Below are positions 2,151-57,621 of a stretch of DNA of 64,000 nt, piece by piece. A program made the position numbers and the translations under genes. Positions within the stretch are counted from its first letter, which is position 1. Every line of letters begins with the position of its first letter. The DNA lies in contig CABXRK010000001.1 of the NCBI GenBank assembly GCA_902514625.1, positions 1 to 64,000 of the forward strand, read 5' to 3'. Origin of the DNA: an uncultured Bacteroidota bacterium (GTDB lineage: Bacteria; Bacteroidota; Bacteroidia; Flavobacteriales; Flavobacteriaceae). The notes under the pieces are model-generated. The model searched no databases, had not been told where the DNA came from, and worked only from the letters and a program-made list of their open reading frames with translations.

Positions 2151-3469
2151 TTTATGGAATTTTAATCACAGCACTCTGTGTTTGCTGGATTATTTTTGGG
2201 ACAAGTTATCTTAAAATTCATCCCTTTTTAATACTCCTTTCCGCTAGCATTTTTTTAGCAATTGGGATTGAAATTCCAATAAATGAAATTAGCAGTCTTA
2301 TAGGAAAAGGATTTGGAAAAACCTTCGAAAGCATTGGTTTAATTATTATATATGGGACAATTATTGGAGTTGTTTTAGAACATTCTAATGCAACACATAC
2401 TATTGCAGATAAAATATTAAAATTATTACATAATTTACCAGCTCCATTCATTGTTAGCTTTATCGGCTATATTGTTTCAATTCCTGTTTTTTGTGACTCC
2501 GCTTTTGTTATACTTAACTCTTTAAATAAATCTATTTCACACAAAACAAAAACTCCCTTAATTGGATTAACTATAGCGCTTTCAACAGGATTATTTGCTC
2601 CTCATGTTCTCGTTCCTCCCACTCCAGGGCCACTTGCTGCTGCAGCAAACCTAGAACTCGAAAATATTTTTTTACTTATAATTTTTGGTGGATTAATAGC
2701 TTTTATTTTAATCTTGATAGGTGCATTTTATTCTTATCATTTATCTAAAAAAAAAATTTATTCCTATCAACAAAATTTTCAAATTGATGATTCTGAGATT
2801 AAATCATTACCTTCTTTTTCAAAATCAATCTCTCCAATACTGATCCCCATAATCTTAATGGCTCTCGGGACCTTGTTTAATTTTAATAATTCTATATTCT
2901 CTTCAATATTTGATTTTATTACCCTTCCTGTTAATTCTCTATTGATTGGAATGCTTTTATCATTCAAATTAATTTCAAAAGAAAAATTCAAAAGCCTATA
3001 TAAAATTGTGGAAAAAGGCATTATTAATGCGGCTCCTATATTAATTATTACTGGGATGGGTGGCACTATTGGAATAATATTACAAGAACTTCCGATTTCT
3101 ACTTATATAGAAGAAATTGAAATTGATCCAAAGTTTGGAATAATTTTACCATTTATAATAGCTGCAATATTAAAATCAGCTCAAGGATCTTCTACTGTCG
3201 CTATTATTACAACATCATCAATTATATTTCCTTTTCTTCCATTACTTCAAATAGATAGTGAAATGGGAAAAGTTTGGGCTATTATTTCATTAGGAGTTGG
3301 ATCAATGACGGTTTCACATGCTAACGATTCATATTTTTGGATAGTTTCTCAAATTGGCGGAATTGATGTAAAAACCGCATATAAAACCCATACTTTTGCC
3401 ACTTTTATTCAAGGACTAAGTGGATTAATTATAACATTAATTGGTTTTACCCTATGGAAAATGATGTAA
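2147..3469 (+). CDS. GntP family permease (gluconate/glycerate-type)
   Basis: Multi-TM; LVPPTPGPLAAAANL, KSAQGSSTVAIITTSSI, SHANDSYFWIVSQ motifs of GntP family; overlaps the kinase start. Confidence 0.9.
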   Translation: MIYGILITALCVCWIIFGTSYLKIHPFLILLSASIFLAIGIEIPINEISSLIGKGFGKTFESIGLIIIYGTIIGVVLEHSNATHTIADKILKLLHNLPAPFIVSFIGYIVSIPVFCDSAFVILNSLNKSISHKTKTPLIGLTIALSTGLFAPHVLVPPTPGPLAAAANLELENIFLLIIFGGLIAFILILIGAFYSYHLSKKKIYSYQQNFQIDDSEIKSLPSFSKSISPILIPIILMALGTLFNFNNSIFSSIFDFITLPVNSLLIGMLLSFKLISKEKFKSLYKIVEKGIINAAPILIITGMGGTIGIILQELPISTYIEEIEIDPKFGIILPFIIAAILKSAQGSSTVAIITTSSIIFPFLPLLQIDSEMGKVWAIISLGVGSMTVSHANDSYFWIVSQIGGIDVKTAYKTHTFATFIQGLSGLIITLIGFTLWKMM

Positions 3470-49167: not shown

Positions 49168-50223
49168 TTGAATAAGTCAAAGATCAGTCTATTTAGTGAA
49201 GGAAATATATATTTTTCAACCTTTATGCCTCTTATAAAATCATTTATTGATAAAAAAATTTATGTTTCATATTATACAATAGACTCCAAGGATAAAATAT
49301 TAAATATTAAAAGCGAATATTTAAAGGCTAAATACTTAGGATATAAGTTCCTGTCATATATTAGATTTTCATTAATAGAATCTGAATATTTAATAAGTAC
49401 AACTCCAAATATTGGAACTCCAGGTTATCCATATAAAAAACCTAAATTAGTAAAAAACTTAGTCCATGTATTCCACTCAATAAGTGATATTTCAATCTAC
49501 AGAGAAGGATCGTTAGATCATTATGATTCTGTTATATTGGTGGGCCAATTTCAAAAAAAATCAATAAGAGAACTAGAAAAAAAACGAGGGTTAAAACAAA
49601 AAGAGCTTTTGCCTCTAGGCGTCCCTTATATAGATGATTTAATTAGGAGTAAAAAAGCAATTAATTTTTCAAAAACAACTATTTTAATTGGTTCCTCTTG
49701 GGGTAATAAAGGATGCTTACGTAATTACGGAATAGAATTTATAAAAGAGTTAAGCAAAAAAGAATATAATATAATCGTCCGTCCTCATCCTCACTCCCTT
49801 CATCATGAAAAAAGATTTATAAATAATTGTAAAAGAGAATTATTAAAATGTAAAAATCTAGAATGGGATGATTCTATTAGTCCCTCGGAATCTATGAATA
49901 AATCTAACATCTTAATTTCAGACACATCATCTATTAGATTTGATTTTTTATTTGTTCATAAAAAACCAGTAATTACTTTGGGTATAAATAGAGATGAAAT
50001 GAAAGGCTATGAAAGAGAACATCTGGATATAAATTGGACTGATAGATCTAATTATGATATTGGACCAGTTATTACGAAAGACCTTATTCATCAATTGGAA
50101 TCAAAAATAAAATTATCAATTAAGAGTTTTAACAAATCAAAATTGTTAAAATACAGAAATAAAACTGTTTATAATTTTGGGAAAGGAGCCAATTCAATAA
50201 CTGAATTTTTTATTAATCAATAA
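49168..50223 (+). CDS. CDP-glycerol glycerophosphotransferase-like (TagB/TagF family) protein
   Basis: VHVFHSISDISIYREGSLDHYDSVILVGQFQKKSIRELE, IIVRPHPHSLHH, NILISDTSSIRFDFLFVHKKPVITLG. Confidence 0.75.
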   Translation: MNKSKISLFSEGNIYFSTFMPLIKSFIDKKIYVSYYTIDSKDKILNIKSEYLKAKYLGYKFLSYIRFSLIESEYLISTTPNIGTPGYPYKKPKLVKNLVHVFHSISDISIYREGSLDHYDSVILVGQFQKKSIRELEKKRGLKQKELLPLGVPYIDDLIRSKKAINFSKTTILIGSSWGNKGCLRNYGIEFIKELSKKEYNIIVRPHPHSLHHEKRFINNCKRELLKCKNLEWDDSISPSESMNKSNILISDTSSIRFDFLFVHKKPVITLGINRDEMKGYEREHLDINWTDRSNYDIGPVITKDLIHQLESKIKLSIKSFNKSKLLKYRNKTVYNFGKGANSITEFFINQ

Positions 50224-50388
50224 AAAAGAAAACTTATATCTAAAACTCCTTTTTAACTTATCACAAACTCTTCCAGTAGTTCCACTTCCCATAAAAGGGT
50301 CTAATACCAATTCAAACTCTTTAGAAGTTTGAGGTATTGGTAGAGTTATTATTTCTTCAGGAAAAGGAGCTCTAGTTTCAAAAGAAAA
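50224..50388 (-). pseudogene. C-terminal remnant of a DNA (adenine-N6/cytosine-N4) methyltransferase
   Basis: Minus-strand translation FSFETRAPFPEEIITLPIPQTSKEFELVLDPFMGSGTTGRVCDKLKRSFRYKFSF has APFPEE and DPFMGSGTTG (SAM motif I); no start, in-frame TGA just upstream. Confidence 0.8.
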
Positions 50389-50489
50389 TCAGATTTAATT
50401 TAAGGCACAGAGGTCTAAATTGAGGGTTTTAAATTGAAATTTTTGTGGGTTCTATAAGAAATAAAGGGACAAATATCGGGACAAATAAG

Positions 50490-50526
50490 AAAAAGTGCTA
50501 ACGGCAAATTTACCGTTAAAACTTTT
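50490..50526. terminator. hairpin terminator-like inverted repeat before the leftmost tRNA-3'-end core
   Basis: aaaagtgctaacggcaaatttaccgttaaaactttt: stem taacgg/ccgtta flanked by aaaagt/actttt. Confidence 0.6.
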
Positions 50527-50534
50527 CTTTGTTG

Positions 50535-50547
50535 GTGGTCCCACCTG
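50535..50547 (-). repeat. tRNA-Met 3'-end core copy 1 (putative att core)
   Basis: gtggtcccacctg, identical to 57547-57559 in the tRNA-Met 3' end; 20-nt identity gttggtggtcccacctgtcc with copy 2. Confidence 0.8.
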
Positions 50548-50601
50548 TCCCAGAAACAGAGATGTATTTACACTGATTATCAAGTAGTTAAGTTAACAAG
50601 G

Positions 50602-50642
50602 TGGTTCGATAATCGAACCAATCTAGTTCGAAGTTCGAACCA
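50602..50642. repeat. palindrome pair, left end of unit A
   Basis: tggttcgataatcgaacca (50602-50620) and tagttcgaagttcgaacca (50624-50642), start-to-start 22 bp. Confidence 0.85.
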
Positions 50643-50698
50643 TCCCAAAAATTAAGGTTTTTTGACCTTAACCATGATTCAAGTTCCAAAAGGACCAA

Positions 50699-51158: not shown

Positions 51159-51250
51159 TTTGGTTCGACAATTGGTTCGACAATTAAATCATTAAAAACA
51201 AAAACCCTCATAGTCAAGGACTTAGAGGGTTTGTTGGTGGTCCCACCTGT
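51159..51250. repeat. right-end repeat of unit A (direct half-sites + hairpin + tRNA-3'-end core copy 2)
   Basis: Gapless alignment with 57469-57560 at constant offset 6310; contains ggttcgacaattggttcgaca, aaaaccctcatagtcaaggacttagagggttt and gtggtcccacctg. Confidence 0.88.
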
Positions 51251-51303: not shown

Positions 51304-51344
51304 TGGTTCGATTGTCGAACCATTTTGGTTCGTTGTTCGAACCA
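51304..51344. repeat. palindrome pair, left end of unit B
   Basis: tggttcgattgtcgaacca (51304-51322) and tggttcgttgttcgaacca (51326-51344), start-to-start 22 bp; both left ends have the first palindrome 71 bp from the gttggtggtccc start. Confidence 0.87.
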
Positions 51345-51402
51345 ATCAATGTTTTATAAAAATCTTATGTAAAACCTAGGTTCAAGTCCCTTTGGGACCA
51401 TG

Positions 51403-54399
51403 TCACCCTTCTAATTGATTTAATAACTCTGGTCTTGAAATAAACATTCGAATCATTTTTTCTTTAAAGTATTTCTTTTCAAAAAACTCATACAATTTGG
51501 TACTTGTGTCAAGTGTCTTTATGTTCTTCTCCTCGTAAATTTCACGAATCTTATCTCTTTTGTTAGAGTCTGTGTTGTTTGATTTTACTACTTGTTTAAA
51601 ATCCTCATCGTTTACTATTTCTTCAATTAATTTTTTTGAACTTTCTTCAGTTCCTTCAGGAAGTTTCCCATAATATTCATTTATTTCATTGATGATTTCA
51701 GAAAGTAAATCAAATTCTTCCTCGTCTTTTCCTTTTCCATCTCCATATTCATTAGGGTCAAATATAGTATCCTCAGGTTCTAAAGAAATATTTAATTTTC
51801 CCTTGACATCAATATTTAAAGACTCTAAATCAACTAAATCAGAAACGTCAATTCTTTCGTCTCTATCAACTGGAAACTTCTTTCTTAAATATTCAAAAAA
51901 GACATAATGTTTTTCAAGTTCAATATTGTCAAATTGGTGGACCATTGAAATATATCCATATAGTTTACAATAGTTGGAGAATTGGGTTCTAGAAACATCT
52001 CTATCTTCATCCGAAAGTTCTTTCCATCTGTCTAACACTAAATTTAAAGTGGGTTGTAGTTGTGAATCATCACGATTATCAGAAAAGAAAACAGTATTCC
52101 AATCTTCTATTTCTTGAGGGGTAAACAAGTCATAATTTCTAATCTTGTCAAGAACATCATAGACTAAATTTGGGTCAGTATCTTCGGATAAAATAGTTGT
52201 TTGGTAAAAGTTTTGAAATGATTCTTGAATGGTTTCTACTTTATTTACAAAATCTAAAACAAATGTACTTTTCTTTCCTTTCATCTTTCTGTTCAATCTT
52301 GAAAGTGTTTGAACACATTGTAACCCTTGTATTGGTTTATCGATAAACATTGAATGAAGTAGAGGTTCATCAAATCCTGTTTGGAATTTATCACATACAA
52401 TCAAAACTTTATAAAGGGGATTTTTAAATCCTTTTGGAATATCCTTACTTTCAAATCCGTTTTCTTTATTAAGGGAATATTCTGTTACTTTTTCTCCATT
52501 GTGTTCTGTATCCCCACTAAAACCAACCACACACTTTATTTTATTTTGTAGACCTCTTTCTCTAAATTGTTTGTTCATTTCAAAAAAGAATTTCACCGTG
52601 TCTTTTATAGAACGAACTACAACCATTCCTTTACCTCTACCTTCAATTGATTTGACAGTTGTGTTTAAAAGATGTTCTATTATGATTCCAACTTTTCTGG
52701 ATATTGTTTCAGGATTAGAATCAACCCATTTAATTAATTCTTTTTTACCTCTATTTTCTGGAAGTTCTACATCCTCACCTTTACCTCTTAATTTAAACCA
52801 TCTTTTTACAGGAGTAAAAGATTTTAACACATCTAAAGTAAATCCCTCTCCTATGGATTGTTTCATTGTGTATGTGTGAAATGGTTTTTTGGAACCGTCA
52901 GATTGAGAAGTTCCAAATACTTCTAGTGTTTGTGGTTTTGGTGTTCCGGTAAATCCAAAGAATGAAATATGATTTTGTTTTTGACGAGATTTCATTTCTT
53001 TACGAATCTCTAATATCTCTTCGTTGACTAGATCATCATCAACCTCAATTTCATCTTCAATATTTAACGATAAAGTTTTATTAAGATTTTTCGTTCCTTT
53101 ACCTCCTTGTGAGGAGTGTACCTCATCAACTATTACACCAAAAGTTTTACCACTTAATTCTCTCATTCTGTTAACTACTACCGAAAATTTTTGAATAGTA
53201 GTTACTATTATATTTTTACCACTTGTGAGGGACTTTCTTAGTTGTTCAGAATTTTTGTCAATCCTTTTTACTACACCTTCAACTCTTTGGATACTTTTTA
53301 CGGTGTCTTGGAGTTGTTTGTCTAACACCTTTCTATCTGTTATAATAATTATTGAATCAAAGACCCTGTCTTGTCCATCATTCTTAAACAAATTCATTAA
53401 CATAAAAGACAACCAACCAATAGAAAATGATTTTCCTGAACCAGTGGTGTGTTGAACTAAATAGTTTGTTCCAACACCATCTTTAAGTACTTGATTTTTT
53501 AATTTTCTAATAACATTTAATTGGTGGTATCGAGGAAAAACAAGAAGGGGTTTTTTATTCTCTTCAACCCTTTGTTTTTTATCATTCCAAGTGTAGTCAG
53601 TTTTTTGTGTGAACAGTAAAAAGTTTTCAATGATATCTAAAAGTGATGTAGGGGTAAGTACTTCCTTCCATAAATAATCCACCTTGAATCCTTTACTTTT
53701 TGTTTCAGAGTTGTTTAAAGTTTTATTAAACGGTAAAAAGAAAGTATCCTTACCTTCTAATTTAGTTGTCATGTTAACCCTGTCGTTATCTACACTAAAA
53801 TGACAAACACATCTTTGAAATTTAAGTAGTGGTTCCCCTTTTGGATCTCTATTAAATCTGTATTGTTTGTCAGAGTCAAGAACAGTCTGTCCTGTTAATT
53901 GATTTTTAAGTTCTATTGTTAAAATAGGAATTCCATTAATAAAAACAACCACATCAATGGAGTTATTATTGTGAGGTGAATAGTGAAGTTGACGAACTAA
54001 AAGAAATTTATTTTTTAGATATTTAGTTTCTCTATATTCTGGATTGAGATTACTTGAAGGTTGGAAGTATAGTGTTTTTATATTCCCACCATATACATCA
54101 TCAAATCCGTTTCTTAAAACATGTATTAATCCCTTATTTTCTATTACTTTATTTAATCTCTTTAAAATATTTTTATGGGTGTTATTCCCATATTTCTTTA
54201 TAAGGGTATCGTAGGTTTCTTTTTGTGTTTCCTTTAGGAACTCTATGAATTCATCTCCAACAATACATAAATCTTTATCATACCAACTATCATCTCTTTG
54301 GTGAACTTTAGAATGAAATTGTAAACCATCATCTAAAAGAGAATTTAGTTCTCTTTCAATGTGTTGTTCGTATCTTTTTTCTGTTGGTACTCTTACCAT
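51403..54399 (-). CDS. hsdR: type I restriction endonuclease subunit R
   Basis: VVFINGIPILTIELKNQLTG nuclease motif, QHTTGSGKSFSIGWLS Walker A, VIVDEVHSSQGG, FFGFTGTP, QTLSRLNRKMKGK. Confidence 0.96.
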   Translation of the reverse strand: MVRVPTEKRYEQHIERELNSLLDDGLQFHSKVHQRDDSWYDKDLCIVGDEFIEFLKETQKETYDTLIKKYGNNTHKNILKRLNKVIENKGLIHVLRNGFDDVYGGNIKTLYFQPSSNLNPEYRETKYLKNKFLLVRQLHYSPHNNNSIDVVVFINGIPILTIELKNQLTGQTVLDSDKQYRFNRDPKGEPLLKFQRCVCHFSVDNDRVNMTTKLEGKDTFFLPFNKTLNNSETKSKGFKVDYLWKEVLTPTSLLDIIENFLLFTQKTDYTWNDKKQRVEENKKPLLVFPRYHQLNVIRKLKNQVLKDGVGTNYLVQHTTGSGKSFSIGWLSFMLMNLFKNDGQDRVFDSIIIITDRKVLDKQLQDTVKSIQRVEGVVKRIDKNSEQLRKSLTSGKNIIVTTIQKFSVVVNRMRELSGKTFGVIVDEVHSSQGGKGTKNLNKTLSLNIEDEIEVDDDLVNEEILEIRKEMKSRQKQNHISFFGFTGTPKPQTLEVFGTSQSDGSKKPFHTYTMKQSIGEGFTLDVLKSFTPVKRWFKLRGKGEDVELPENRGKKELIKWVDSNPETISRKVGIIIEHLLNTTVKSIEGRGKGMVVVRSIKDTVKFFFEMNKQFRERGLQNKIKCVVGFSGDTEHNGEKVTEYSLNKENGFESKDIPKGFKNPLYKVLIVCDKFQTGFDEPLLHSMFIDKPIQGLQCVQTLSRLNRKMKGKKSTFVLDFVNKVETIQESFQNFYQTTILSEDTDPNLVYDVLDKIRNYDLFTPQEIEDWNTVFFSDNRDDSQLQPTLNLVLDRWKELSDEDRDVSRTQFSNYCKLYGYISMVHQFDNIELEKHYVFFEYLRKKFPVDRDERIDVSDLVDLESLNIDVKGKLNISLEPEDTIFDPNEYGDGKGKDEEEFDLLSEIINEINEYYGKLPEGTEESSKKLIEEIVNDEDFKQVVKSNNTDSNKRDKIREIYEEKNIKTLDTSTKLYEFFEKKYFKEKMIRMFISRPELLNQLEG

Positions 54400-54401
54400 A
54401 A

Positions 54402-55688
54402 TTAAACTACTTTTCGTTTACCAGTTACTACTTCAGAGATTAGGGATTGACGATACTCTTTAAGGAGTTCTATTCTCTTTTCTTCAATGGATATAGTGTT
54501 ATCTATTAGTTTGGTTTGTTCATCCAAATAGGATACAATTTGTTGTTGTTCATTTACATCAGGAATTAGTACAGGAGTATCACCTAAAACCTGTTGACTT
54601 AATGATGAACGTGTAACTATGTTCATTTTACTTTCAATAATTACTTTTTTCCAATGGGTCTGAAAATGATATCTAGAATATTCAGGTAAATGAACATTAT
54701 TATGAAATCTAAATCTAATTACGAATCCTGAAAATCCTGAGTTCTCAATTGTGTTTAAACAAGTGGAACAAACCCCAATATCATCTTTTGTTTCAGATGT
54801 TCTCGTAAAAAACACATCCCCTCTTTGAATAGTATATCTATCTATTTCAGAGTCCTCTAACTGAACTTTCCCATTTAGTTTGGTTGGAGTAATATCGTTT
54901 TTATATACATCTCCATAACTCATAAATGGATATCCAGTTCCAAAAAACTCTGAACCCTTACTAATTCCGTTCTGAAAAGAACCGAGGTGTCTTAAAGGGA
55001 CTATTCTCCAACCATCTGGAATCTCTCCAATCCATTCCACACCACTATCCTTCATCTCCACATTGGGGTTCAATCCTTTGGTAACTACTTCATTGATAAG
55101 AGAGGTTCTTTTCTCTTTGAGTAGTTCAATCTTTAGTTGGGTTTTCTCAATTAGAGAATCAATGAGTAAGGTTTTGGTATCTAAGAAGGATACGATTTGT
55201 TGTTGTTCGGAGAGGGGTGGGAGTGGTAGTTTAATATTACCAAACACATCCTTAGTAAGATGAGTCATTGTTGAACCGTGAGATTCGTTTGAAAGTTCTT
55301 CAATTACTCCTTGAATTACCCAGTAATAAAATCTTCTTACCAAAATCTCGTTAAGTTCAACTTTGAATATGTGTTGATTTAGAACCCCCTCTTCCCTTTT
55401 CCATTCAAATAAACCGAGGGTGGTAGACCAACTAAAAAGATAATCACCTTTTTTGATGATATATTTTGGGTCTATTTCATTATCATAGAAGTTTTCAGAA
55501 CCTTTACCTTTAGTTAAGTTTTGTATTCTAATTATTAATCGTCCATTGTCTCCCCAATCAGAAGGTTTGAAAGGATAACCATTTATATAAGTACCAACAT
55601 ATTTCATCTTGGTGTGTTTCCACTGACTTGGAATCTCACCAATCCATTCAACTCCTGAATCCTTATATGAATCATATCTCTTCATCAA
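54402..55688 (-). CDS. hsdS: type I restriction-modification specificity subunit S
   Basis: Two TRDs, each opened by DSGVEWIGEIPxxW and closed by LSEQQQIVSFLDTKT / VNEQQQIVSYLDEQT conserved regions. Confidence 0.96.
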   Translation of the reverse strand: MMKRYDSYKDSGVEWIGEIPSQWKHTKMKYVGTYINGYPFKPSDWGDNGRLIIRIQNLTKGKGSENFYDNEIDPKYIIKKGDYLFSWSTTLGLFEWKREEGVLNQHIFKVELNEILVRRFYYWVIQGVIEELSNESHGSTMTHLTKDVFGNIKLPLPPLSEQQQIVSFLDTKTLLIDSLIEKTQLKIELLKEKRTSLINEVVTKGLNPNVEMKDSGVEWIGEIPDGWRIVPLRHLGSFQNGISKGSEFFGTGYPFMSYGDVYKNDITPTKLNGKVQLEDSEIDRYTIQRGDVFFTRTSETKDDIGVCSTCLNTIENSGFSGFVIRFRFHNNVHLPEYSRYHFQTHWKKVIIESKMNIVTRSSLSQQVLGDTPVLIPDVNEQQQIVSYLDEQTKLIDNTISIEEKRIELLKEYRQSLISEVVTGKRKVV

Positions 55689-57397
55689 TCCATTATTAGG
55701 TTAAGTAAGTTTTCAGATTCTTTTTTTAACTCTAATAAATCACGAGTAATATCCTCTGAAGAACGAAGGGGTTTGTATTGGTAAAAATACTTTGTGAAGT
55801 TGATTTCATATCCCACCTTACTTTTGTTAAAATCAATCCATGATTTTGGAAGATGAGGTTCTACTTCACGAGAAAAATAGTCTTCAATATCTTCTGATAA
55901 AGGAACTCTTTCTGAATCTCTAAGTTTTGAATCAGGTTTTGGATTCCCTTTTTTATCTCTAAGAACTTGTCCCTTCTCAACCTTAGGTTGTTCAATCGTA
56001 ACCTTTGTGTAACCAAAGAACTCATTATCAAAAATCTTAGAGTGTTCATTTTCTTCAAACTTCTCGTATGTTTTAAGGAGTTGTTCTCTTTGAGAATCCT
56101 CAATATATTTTCGTTTATTCCCCAATGATTTCTTCATGGATTTATAGAACGAAGAACCATTGATAAGTTGAACTTTACCTTTTCGTTTAGAATTCTTCTT
56201 GTTGGTAACAATCCATACGTAGGTGGAAATACCTGTATTAAAGAATAAAGAGTCTGGAAGAGAAATAATCCCTTCCAACCAATCACTTTCAATTATCCAT
56301 TTACGGATTTCTGATTCTCCTGAACCACCATCACCTGTAAATAAAGGAGAACCATTAAATACAACACCTATTCTGGAACCTTGAGTTTCCATTTTAGAAA
56401 TCATATGTTGTAGGAAAAGAAGTGAACCATCCGATACTCTTGGTGTACCAACTGAAAATCTACCTCCATATTCTTGAGACTCATTTTTGATTTGTTTTTG
56501 TTCTGATTTCCAACTAACTCCAAAAGGAGGATTAGTAATCATATAATCAAACTTTCTGTTTTCCTCAGAGTGTTGGTCCTTGGTAAGTGATGAACCAAGT
56601 TTAATGTGGTCTGGTTCTTCATCTGTAATTAAAAAGTCTGATTTACAAATCGAATAGGTTTGAGGGTTGAGTTCCTGTCCAAACAAGTTGATATCTACTT
56701 CTTTATTGATGTTTTCATGTACCCAATCTTTTCCAATGGTTAACATTCCACCTGTTCCACAACAAGGGTCATAAACAGAAATTATTTTATTTGGGTCTGA
56801 AAGTTTGTTCTTATCCGATGAAAACACCAATGAAACCAAAAGTTTTACTACATCACGTGGTGTATAATGTTCTCCACTGGTTTCATTACTCATCTCTGAG
56901 AATTTCCTTAGAAGTTCTTCAAAAATATTCCCCATGACGTGATTGTCAATTTTCGATGGATGTAAATCAATGTCAGTAAACTTCTCAACAAGAAGATATA
57001 ATTTGTTGTTTGAGTCTAATTTGTCAATGTGTTTTTGTAATCCAAAATTTTGAATGATGTCTTGAACATTTGTAGAGAAAGAACTTAGATAATCATAAAA
57101 GTTTTCTGAAAGTTTACTAGGTTCATCCTTCAACCTTCTTAAATCATATCTTGAATAGTTGGAGAACTTTAGGTTAAGTTTTGAATGTATGATTTTAGAG
57201 GTATCATCAAACTTGTTTTTATACTCTTGATGAACTTTAATAATTTCATCTTTTCTTCCTTCCAAAACACAATCTAGTCTTCTTAATACTACAAAGGGTA
57301 AAATTACATCCCCATACTCATGTTGTTTAAACAACCCTCTAAGTACATCGTCACAGACATTCCAAATAAAGGATGATATTTCGTTATGGGTTGACAT
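55685..57397 (-). CDS. hsdM: type I restriction-modification DNA methyltransferase subunit M
   Basis: SGEHYTPRDVVKLLVSLVF, VYDPCCGTGGML, DYMITNPPFGVSW. Confidence 0.97.
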   Translation of the reverse strand: MSTHNEISSFIWNVCDDVLRGLFKQHEYGDVILPFVVLRRLDCVLEGRKDEIIKVHQEYKNKFDDTSKIIHSKLNLKFSNYSRYDLRRLKDEPSKLSENFYDYLSSFSTNVQDIIQNFGLQKHIDKLDSNNKLYLLVEKFTDIDLHPSKIDNHVMGNIFEELLRKFSEMSNETSGEHYTPRDVVKLLVSLVFSSDKNKLSDPNKIISVYDPCCGTGGMLTIGKDWVHENINKEVDINLFGQELNPQTYSICKSDFLITDEEPDHIKLGSSLTKDQHSEENRKFDYMITNPPFGVSWKSEQKQIKNESQEYGGRFSVGTPRVSDGSLLFLQHMISKMETQGSRIGVVFNGSPLFTGDGGSGESEIRKWIIESDWLEGIISLPDSLFFNTGISTYVWIVTNKKNSKRKGKVQLINGSSFYKSMKKSLGNKRKYIEDSQREQLLKTYEKFEENEHSKIFDNEFFGYTKVTIEQPKVEKGQVLRDKKGNPKPDSKLRDSERVPLSEDIEDYFSREVEPHLPKSWIDFNKSKVGYEINFTKYFYQYKPLRSSEDITRDLLELKKESENLLNLIMD

Positions 57398-57468: not shown

Positions 57469-57560
57469 TTTGGTTCGATAATTGGTTCGACACCTGTGTC
57501 TAAAAAAAACAAAACCCTCATTGTCAATGACATAGAGGGTTTTTTCGTGGTCCCACCTGG
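57469..57560. repeat. right-end repeat of unit B, running into the tRNA-Met 3' end
   Basis: ggttcgataattggttcgaca, aaaaccctcattgtcaatgacatagagggtttt, gtggtcccacctg; gapless match to 51159-51250. Confidence 0.88.
57501..57543 (-). terminator. rho-independent terminator of the tRNA-Met gene
   Basis: Minus strand: aaaaccctc...gagggtttt stem (57511-57519/57535-57543) followed by a T-rich tract (revcomp of taaaaaaaac, 57501-57510). Confidence 0.75.
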
Positions 57561-57621
57561 GCTCGAACCAGGGACCAACTGATTATGAGTCAGCTACTCT
57601 AACCAACTGAGCTATAGGACC
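57548..57621 (-). tRNA. tRNA-Met (anticodon CAT)
   Basis: Minus strand GGTCCTATAGCTCAGTTGGTTAGAGTAGCTGACTCATAATCAGTTGGTCCCTGGTTCGAGCCCAGGTGGGACCA folds as a cloverleaf; loop CTCATAA gives CAT; no encoded CCA. Confidence 0.93.

Follow-up and report, generated by a model that had tools for sequence, protein, structure and literature searches.

In the attP site of phage lambda, short arm sites lie on both sides of the core with an IHF site between arms and core, and tycheposons are anchored at tRNA genes. Binding to subterminal arm sites is established for the CTnDOT integrase (PMC8138268), cis-mobilizable elements (CIMEs) are defined as att-flanked elements without integrase or transfer genes (PMC5704250), and CALIN, defined in the work that also names the tycheposons, are integron cassettes without an integrase (PMC11389934). 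The window, i.e. the whole 64,000-nucleotide stretch of Flavobacteriaceae DNA analyzed here, contains two cassettes that share features with these systems. As in CIMEs such as those related to ICESt1, they are flanked by direct attL/attR-type sites, carry no integrase or transfer genes, and are stacked by tandem accretion at a tRNA 3' end; unlike CIMEs, such cassettes are small (0.7-6.3 kb), each has an arm specificity of its own that both ends share, the cargo is often a restriction-modification system, no ICE is seen, and adjacent cassettes often differ in arm code. By sequence the window cassettes appear to fit the CIME definition, apart from origin by decay and mobilization, and may represent a variant of CIME-like tandem accretion. 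With regard to an ICE or IME origin, integrase-bearing relatives share the layout; an intact ancestor of the window cassettes was not found.

Comparable likenesses and differences hold for the other systems. The cassettes resemble lambda attP in having an IHF consensus between arms and core and short arms on both sides, and differ from it in that the arms on one side are 19-bp inverted pairs and the core is the tRNA 3' end. Like tycheposons they are small tRNA-anchored islands in marine bacteria, although of another phylum. A cassette array without an integrase gene and putatively mobilized in trans recalls CALIN; unlike CALIN, core and arm sites at a tRNA take the place of attC and no integron integrase is seen, and the overlap of the sites with the tRNA 3' end speaks against an integron cassette array. 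The integrase of one relative (G342) has the arm-binding, core-binding and catalytic domains of the IntCTnDOT group (CTnDOT, NBU1), against which stands the present arrangement, where one end has direct repeats and the opposite end paired palindromes. No description of arms of this form was found in the literature searched, outside which most subscription papers lay. Very probably, the palindromes serve an arm-domain tyrosine integrase as arm-type attachment sites arranged in inverted pairs.

The anchor is a tRNA gene with anticodon CAT (57547-57621, minus strand; ARAGORN and Rfam RF00005) that is called tRNA-Met and may alternatively be an Ile2-type CAU tRNA. Its 3' end, AGGTGGGACCAC on the minus strand, is core 1 (57547-57558), and minus-strand copies of it form core 2 at the border of cassettes 1 and 2 (51237-51248) and core 3 at the far border of cassette 2 (50535-50546). 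All three share one orientation and make up the att flanks together with the arm sites. Read from the tRNA, cassette 1 consists of core 1, a terminator-like hairpin, two direct repeats TCGAACCA, a type I restriction-modification system on the minus strand (51403-57397; Pfam and PADLOC) with HsdM (55685-57397), HsdS (54402-55688) and HsdR (51403-54399), a palindrome pair and core 2. Cassette 2 follows with a terminator-like hairpin between core 2 and its own TCGAACCA repeats, a gene for a DUF1569 protein (Pfam PF07606; 50699-51211, minus strand), a palindrome pair and core 3. On the plus strand the repeats read TGGTTCGA with a 12-bp period, at 57471-57478 and 57483-57490 in cassette 1 (57471-57490 overall) and at 51161-51168 and 51173-51180 in cassette 2 (51161-51180); this is also the half-site of the palindromes, the reverse complement of TCGAACCA as read from the tRNA. 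Neither open reading frames nor Pfam revealed an integrase or transfer gene between 50535 and 57558. Beside core 3 is a third, decayed element, whose plus-strand direct repeats GGGACAAAT (50466-50474 and 50478-50486, together 50466-50486, again with a 12-bp period) use another half-site, ATTTGTCCC. The remains of this element lie at 50220-50490 and, judged by eye alone, also include part of a DNA methyltransferase gene on the minus strand, with a DPFMGSGT motif.

In both units, A at the end of cassette 2 and B at the end of cassette 1, the palindromes are paired, 19 bp long, and set off by 71 bp from a repeated tRNA 3' end. The inner palindromes, TGGTTCGATAATCGAACCA in unit A (50602-50620) and TGGTTCGATTGTCGAACCA in unit B (51304-51322), are perfect 8-3-8 structures; the outer ones, TAGTTCGAAGTTCGAACCA (50624-50642) and TGGTTCGTTGTTCGAACCA (51326-51344), pair at 7 of 8 positions and start 93 bp past the start of gttggtggtccc. 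An earlier, sequence-only reading had placed the first palindrome 71 bp past the gttggtggtccc start (50602, 51304) and the second 22 bp past the first (50624, 51326), and both distances are exact in both units. Its further claim, that the intervening sequence has diverged while the spacing is kept, stands as to spacing; divergence is not wholly free in that unit A retains a perfect IHF consensus that unit B has lost. Outside the palindromes unit A has a hairpin TTAAGGT...ACCTTAA (50652-50671), to which hairpins in several related modules correspond in position, and each unit terminates in an inverted core-like copy of T-arm and acceptor on the plus strand (GATTCAAGTTCCAAAAGGACCA, 50676-50697, in unit A; GGTTCAAGTCCCTTTGGGACCA, 51379-51400, in unit B). 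Such an inverted copy with an adjoining hairpin ends most of the related modules too, ~150 bp from the true core.

The position of each palindrome pair and its partner repeats shows that what had been read as one module is one end of each of two cassettes. The earlier reading thus covered half of the structure; it lacked the recurrence of the same 8-mer as direct repeats at the opposite ends, the assignment of the palindromes to separate cassettes whose tRNA-distal ends they mark, and the partner arms beside the upstream core. It had considered a promoter operator unlikely, and the palindromes do lie 3' of the stop codons of unrelated cargo genes, at a core distance that is fixed across these cargos, rather than as ordinary operators 5' of unrelated genes. 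That they are operators or terminators of neighboring genes, or a regulatory RNA, is highly improbable: palindromes can be operators and the strand folds into strong hairpins, but Rfam finds no family here other than tRNA, the distance to the tRNA core is constant whatever the cargo, and the direct repeats of the half-site cannot form a hairpin. A tRNA-like or structured-RNA interpretation of the units was likewise rejected, since the half-site is found in the direct repeats too.

With 3 mismatches allowed, the pattern TGGTTCGAnnnTCGAACCA is matched 5 times in the window as against 0.12 expected, a number attained in none of 100 shuffles. In the window's genome (63% complete, 60 contigs) the core copy and the palindrome pair are each confined to these places, and a genome scan found the exact palindrome sequence to be missing from hundreds of relatives; it is the layout that is conserved across relatives and not the palindrome sequence. 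The module adjoins the same tRNA core in G370, G355, G329, G384, G297, G660, G555, G630, AG-892-E21 and a Maribacter MAG, several of these modules being homologous and hence not independent. Direct repeats of differing sequence, mostly with a period of 11-12 bp, occur 3' of this tRNA in other Flavobacteriaceae, and the far cores were therefore searched for palindromes of the same motif. Far core copies with paired palindromes of their own motif are found in G370 (CCGAACCA), G297, G555, G630, G660 and AG-892-E21, and G355 has three tandem cassettes with the codes GAGTTCCA, GGGTACCA and TGTGTACCA. In G384 palindromes are present and the other cassette end is off the contig; in Maribacter and G329 palindromes are present and the direct repeats have a decayed look. 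Homologues in other genera retain the spacing instead of placing the palindromes at random: the inner palindrome begins 72 or 74 bp before the core, and the pair is spaced 22 bp apart in most modules and ~31-34 bp in a few.

That the palindromes are dispersed repeats of the REP or MITE kind, located here by chance, is scarcely credible. Short palindromic repeats are common, and Chitinophagales genomes hold dispersed pairs that fit a loose pattern, but the pair occurs at two places only in the window's genome, and when 85,462 species genomes were scanned with a loose palindrome-pair pattern that omitted the core, all four of the Flavobacteriaceae contigs matched had their match at this tRNA core. 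Most matches outside the Flavobacteriaceae were set aside as dispersed repeats or chance. Four other candidate loci (G564, G547, G460, G467) look spurious, and scans of viral collections yielded coincidental matches at most. Numerous dispersed palindrome-like pairs TGGTACG...GTACCA, spaced 22 bp apart, occur in Flavipsychrobacter and a Chitinophagaceae MAG (L137, L139, L140, L153-L155, L162, L147, L149 and others).

The relationship between the two ends of a cassette was examined by scoring the palindrome half-sites of each of 17 cassettes against the direct-repeat region of every cassette. Direct repeats match the palindromes of their own cassette at no fewer than 14 of 16 positions in 12 of the 17, and the own-pair sum of 238 (permutation mean 193) is attained in 0 of 20,000 permutations. 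Homology among some of the cassettes makes this test optimistic, but the codes involved are six different ones. The five that fail to match include those of Maribacter, G329 and the second cassette of AG-892-E21 (L152:1960-4302), where repeats GAGTGACAA face palindromes TGGTACCC and two cassettes have perhaps been fused. Comparison of the window cassette with its G370 homologue shows cargo that is identical at 447 of 459 positions (97%), a direct-repeat side at 19 of 35 and a far module at 123 of 160, and the code TCGAACCA gives way to CCGAACCA both in the direct repeats and in the inner palindrome, a shift that could reflect either co-evolution or exchange of both ends.

Five relatives encode their own tyrosine integrase of ~530-570 aa at tRNA-Met, -Val, -Phe or -Asp genes, with the same layout around it. 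G342, at the same tRNA as the window, has a 533-aa integrase with PF17293, PF13102 and PF00589 as well as direct repeats GGGTACTA; its palindromes, TAGTACCC, adjoin a core copy at the end of another contig, so that the two ends of this element are on different contigs. Homologous integrases (32-37% identity) with the same layout and other codes are found in G513 at tRNA-Val and in G660 at tRNA-Phe, the palindromes of the latter being less regular. All four further integrases of this class immediately follow a tRNA and come with 12-bp direct repeats, and palindromes at the far core, predicted beforehand, are present in both of the two whose far end could be judged, G574 (tRNA-Met) and G590 (tRNA-Asp); of the other two, one is cut off by the end of its contig and one shows no far core over 39 kb. 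By domain content rather than phylogeny these integrases probably belong with the arm-domain IntCTnDOT type, Pfam domains having been checked on the G342 protein and G513, G660, G574 and G590 assigned by homology. In these five the cognate integrase thus stands beside the layout as in a CTnDOT-type att site; the window cassettes have no integrase gene within the element, and are classed as integrase-less, their putative arm sites being recognized by layout. The layout seems tied to one integrase class, because the ~530-570-aa class has palindromes whereas the ~420-440-aa integrases at the same tRNA (G387, G300, G340, G393) have direct repeats at both ends. Near one integrase gene, in G313 (L224, minus strand, near 3260), the CAT tRNA recurs in partial form.

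These results bear on whether the palindromes bind integrase or an accessory directionality factor (excisionase, Xis). Xis sites are often found between cargo and core, where the palindromes sit, and inverted pairs two turns apart would suit small dimeric DNA-binding proteins; yet the same half-site recurs at the other end as direct repeats spaced 12 bp apart, both forms vary together between cassettes, and a single protein reading both ends, as the arm-binding domain of the relatives' integrase would permit, is simplest. The Xis explanation is thus improbable. The recombinase arm sites favored by the sequence-only reading agree with the spacing in homologues, the matching half-sites and the integrase-bearing relatives with the same module, and that assignment now appears well founded.

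In 15 of 21 modules, as against 0.17 expected from shuffles, the stretch from palindrome to core contains a perfect match to the IHF consensus WATCARNNNNTTR, known from E. coli; in 14 of these 15 it is 30-31 nt from the core. The unit A site is TATCAAGTAGTTA (50578-50590, plus strand), 31 nt from the core; unit B has none. On the model of phage lambda and CTnDOT, the palindrome pair would act at the tRNA-distal attachment site of each tandem cassette and the direct repeats, which share its half-site, at the opposite end, the N-terminal domain of the integrase binding the arms and its core-binding and catalytic domains the core. A protein of the IHF/HU type, bound in the stretch that separates palindrome from core, would introduce a bend that brings arms and core together, and recombination of the directly repeated cores would excise the cassette and leave an intact tRNA. 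We infer such binding and bending, and that the integrase-less cassettes of the window were moved, now or formerly, in trans by an integrase encoded elsewhere. Counting against the arm-site interpretation are the lack of an integrase in the window cassettes, the code mismatches in 5 of 17 cassettes, and the loss of the IHF consensus from unit B. The ~530-aa integrase class was not found in the window's genome (63% complete), close relatives of the integrase were not found among phages or plasmids, and these searches and the viral scans yielded no helper.

Exchange of cassettes between genera is seen. A Bsp6I-type restriction-modification system is the cargo of the third cassette of G355 and of the first of G630, which share 96.8% identity over 3,414 nt; the first cassette of G355 is 85.7% identical to the second of G630. 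The matches are at differing array positions, which means that the order is permuted, and the chromosomal xerC loci of the two are 68% identical. G370 and G555 have cassettes that share 91-93% identity with the DUF1569 cassette of the window, against 67-71% for the xerC loci. Overall, cassettes 91-97% alike are found in genera whose chromosomes, judged by xerC, are only 67-71% alike. In G355 (88% complete) just two tyrosine recombinases are encoded, presumably XerC and XerD. These were rejected as the movers on the reasoning that one enzyme pair cannot explain several arm codes in one array. Near-identical cassettes in permuted order in divergent genera suggest mobilization in trans, and would fit a scheme in which whole integrase-less cassettes are transferred and the integrase comes from another source.

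The cassettes might instead be decayed scars with functionless palindromes, a possibility that concerns mobility and overlaps with the arm-site interpretation. The lack of an integrase, the missing IHF consensus of unit B and the decayed third element by core 3 are in its favor, but the arms are still matched in most cassettes, and the 3.4-kb cassette at position 3 in G355 and position 1 in G630 is 96.8% identical where xerC is ~68%; we consider such scars rather unlikely. That the cassettes are still mobile in trans seems to us somewhat the better supposition. A broader picture, offered tentatively and perhaps incorrect, is that marine Flavobacteriaceae share a pool of integrase-less, often defense-carrying cassettes stacked at tRNA genes and moved in trans, each with a private arm code at both ends, the codes changing faster than the cargo and deciding which travelling integrase moves which cassette.

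The signature consists of core, IHF site and paired palindromes at one end; at the opposite end, core and terminator are joined by direct repeats that use the palindromes' half-site. It locates the exact ends of integrase-less cassettes and predicts the integrase that would be able to move each of them. With this signature, the spread of restriction-modification genes among streamlined marine bacteria, some of them lacking a dedicated integrase, can be put directly to the test, and it supplies natural pairs of integrase and arm code for the study of specificity change in arm-binding domains. One cassette protein, of 322 aa (L054:438-1406), matches the PADLOC candidate defense family PDC-S18 (E 2.5e-90). 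Proteins of ~770 aa that also match the arm domain were discarded as succinate dehydrogenase subunits: in several small-genome Flavobacteriaceae, SdhA (~770 aa, encoded beside SdhC and SdhB) has an N-terminal extension of ~100 aa that resembles the integrase arm-binding domain, matching residues 3-92 of the G342 protein at 37-41% identity (L230:5132-7447, L231:3374-5671, L232:5236-7551).
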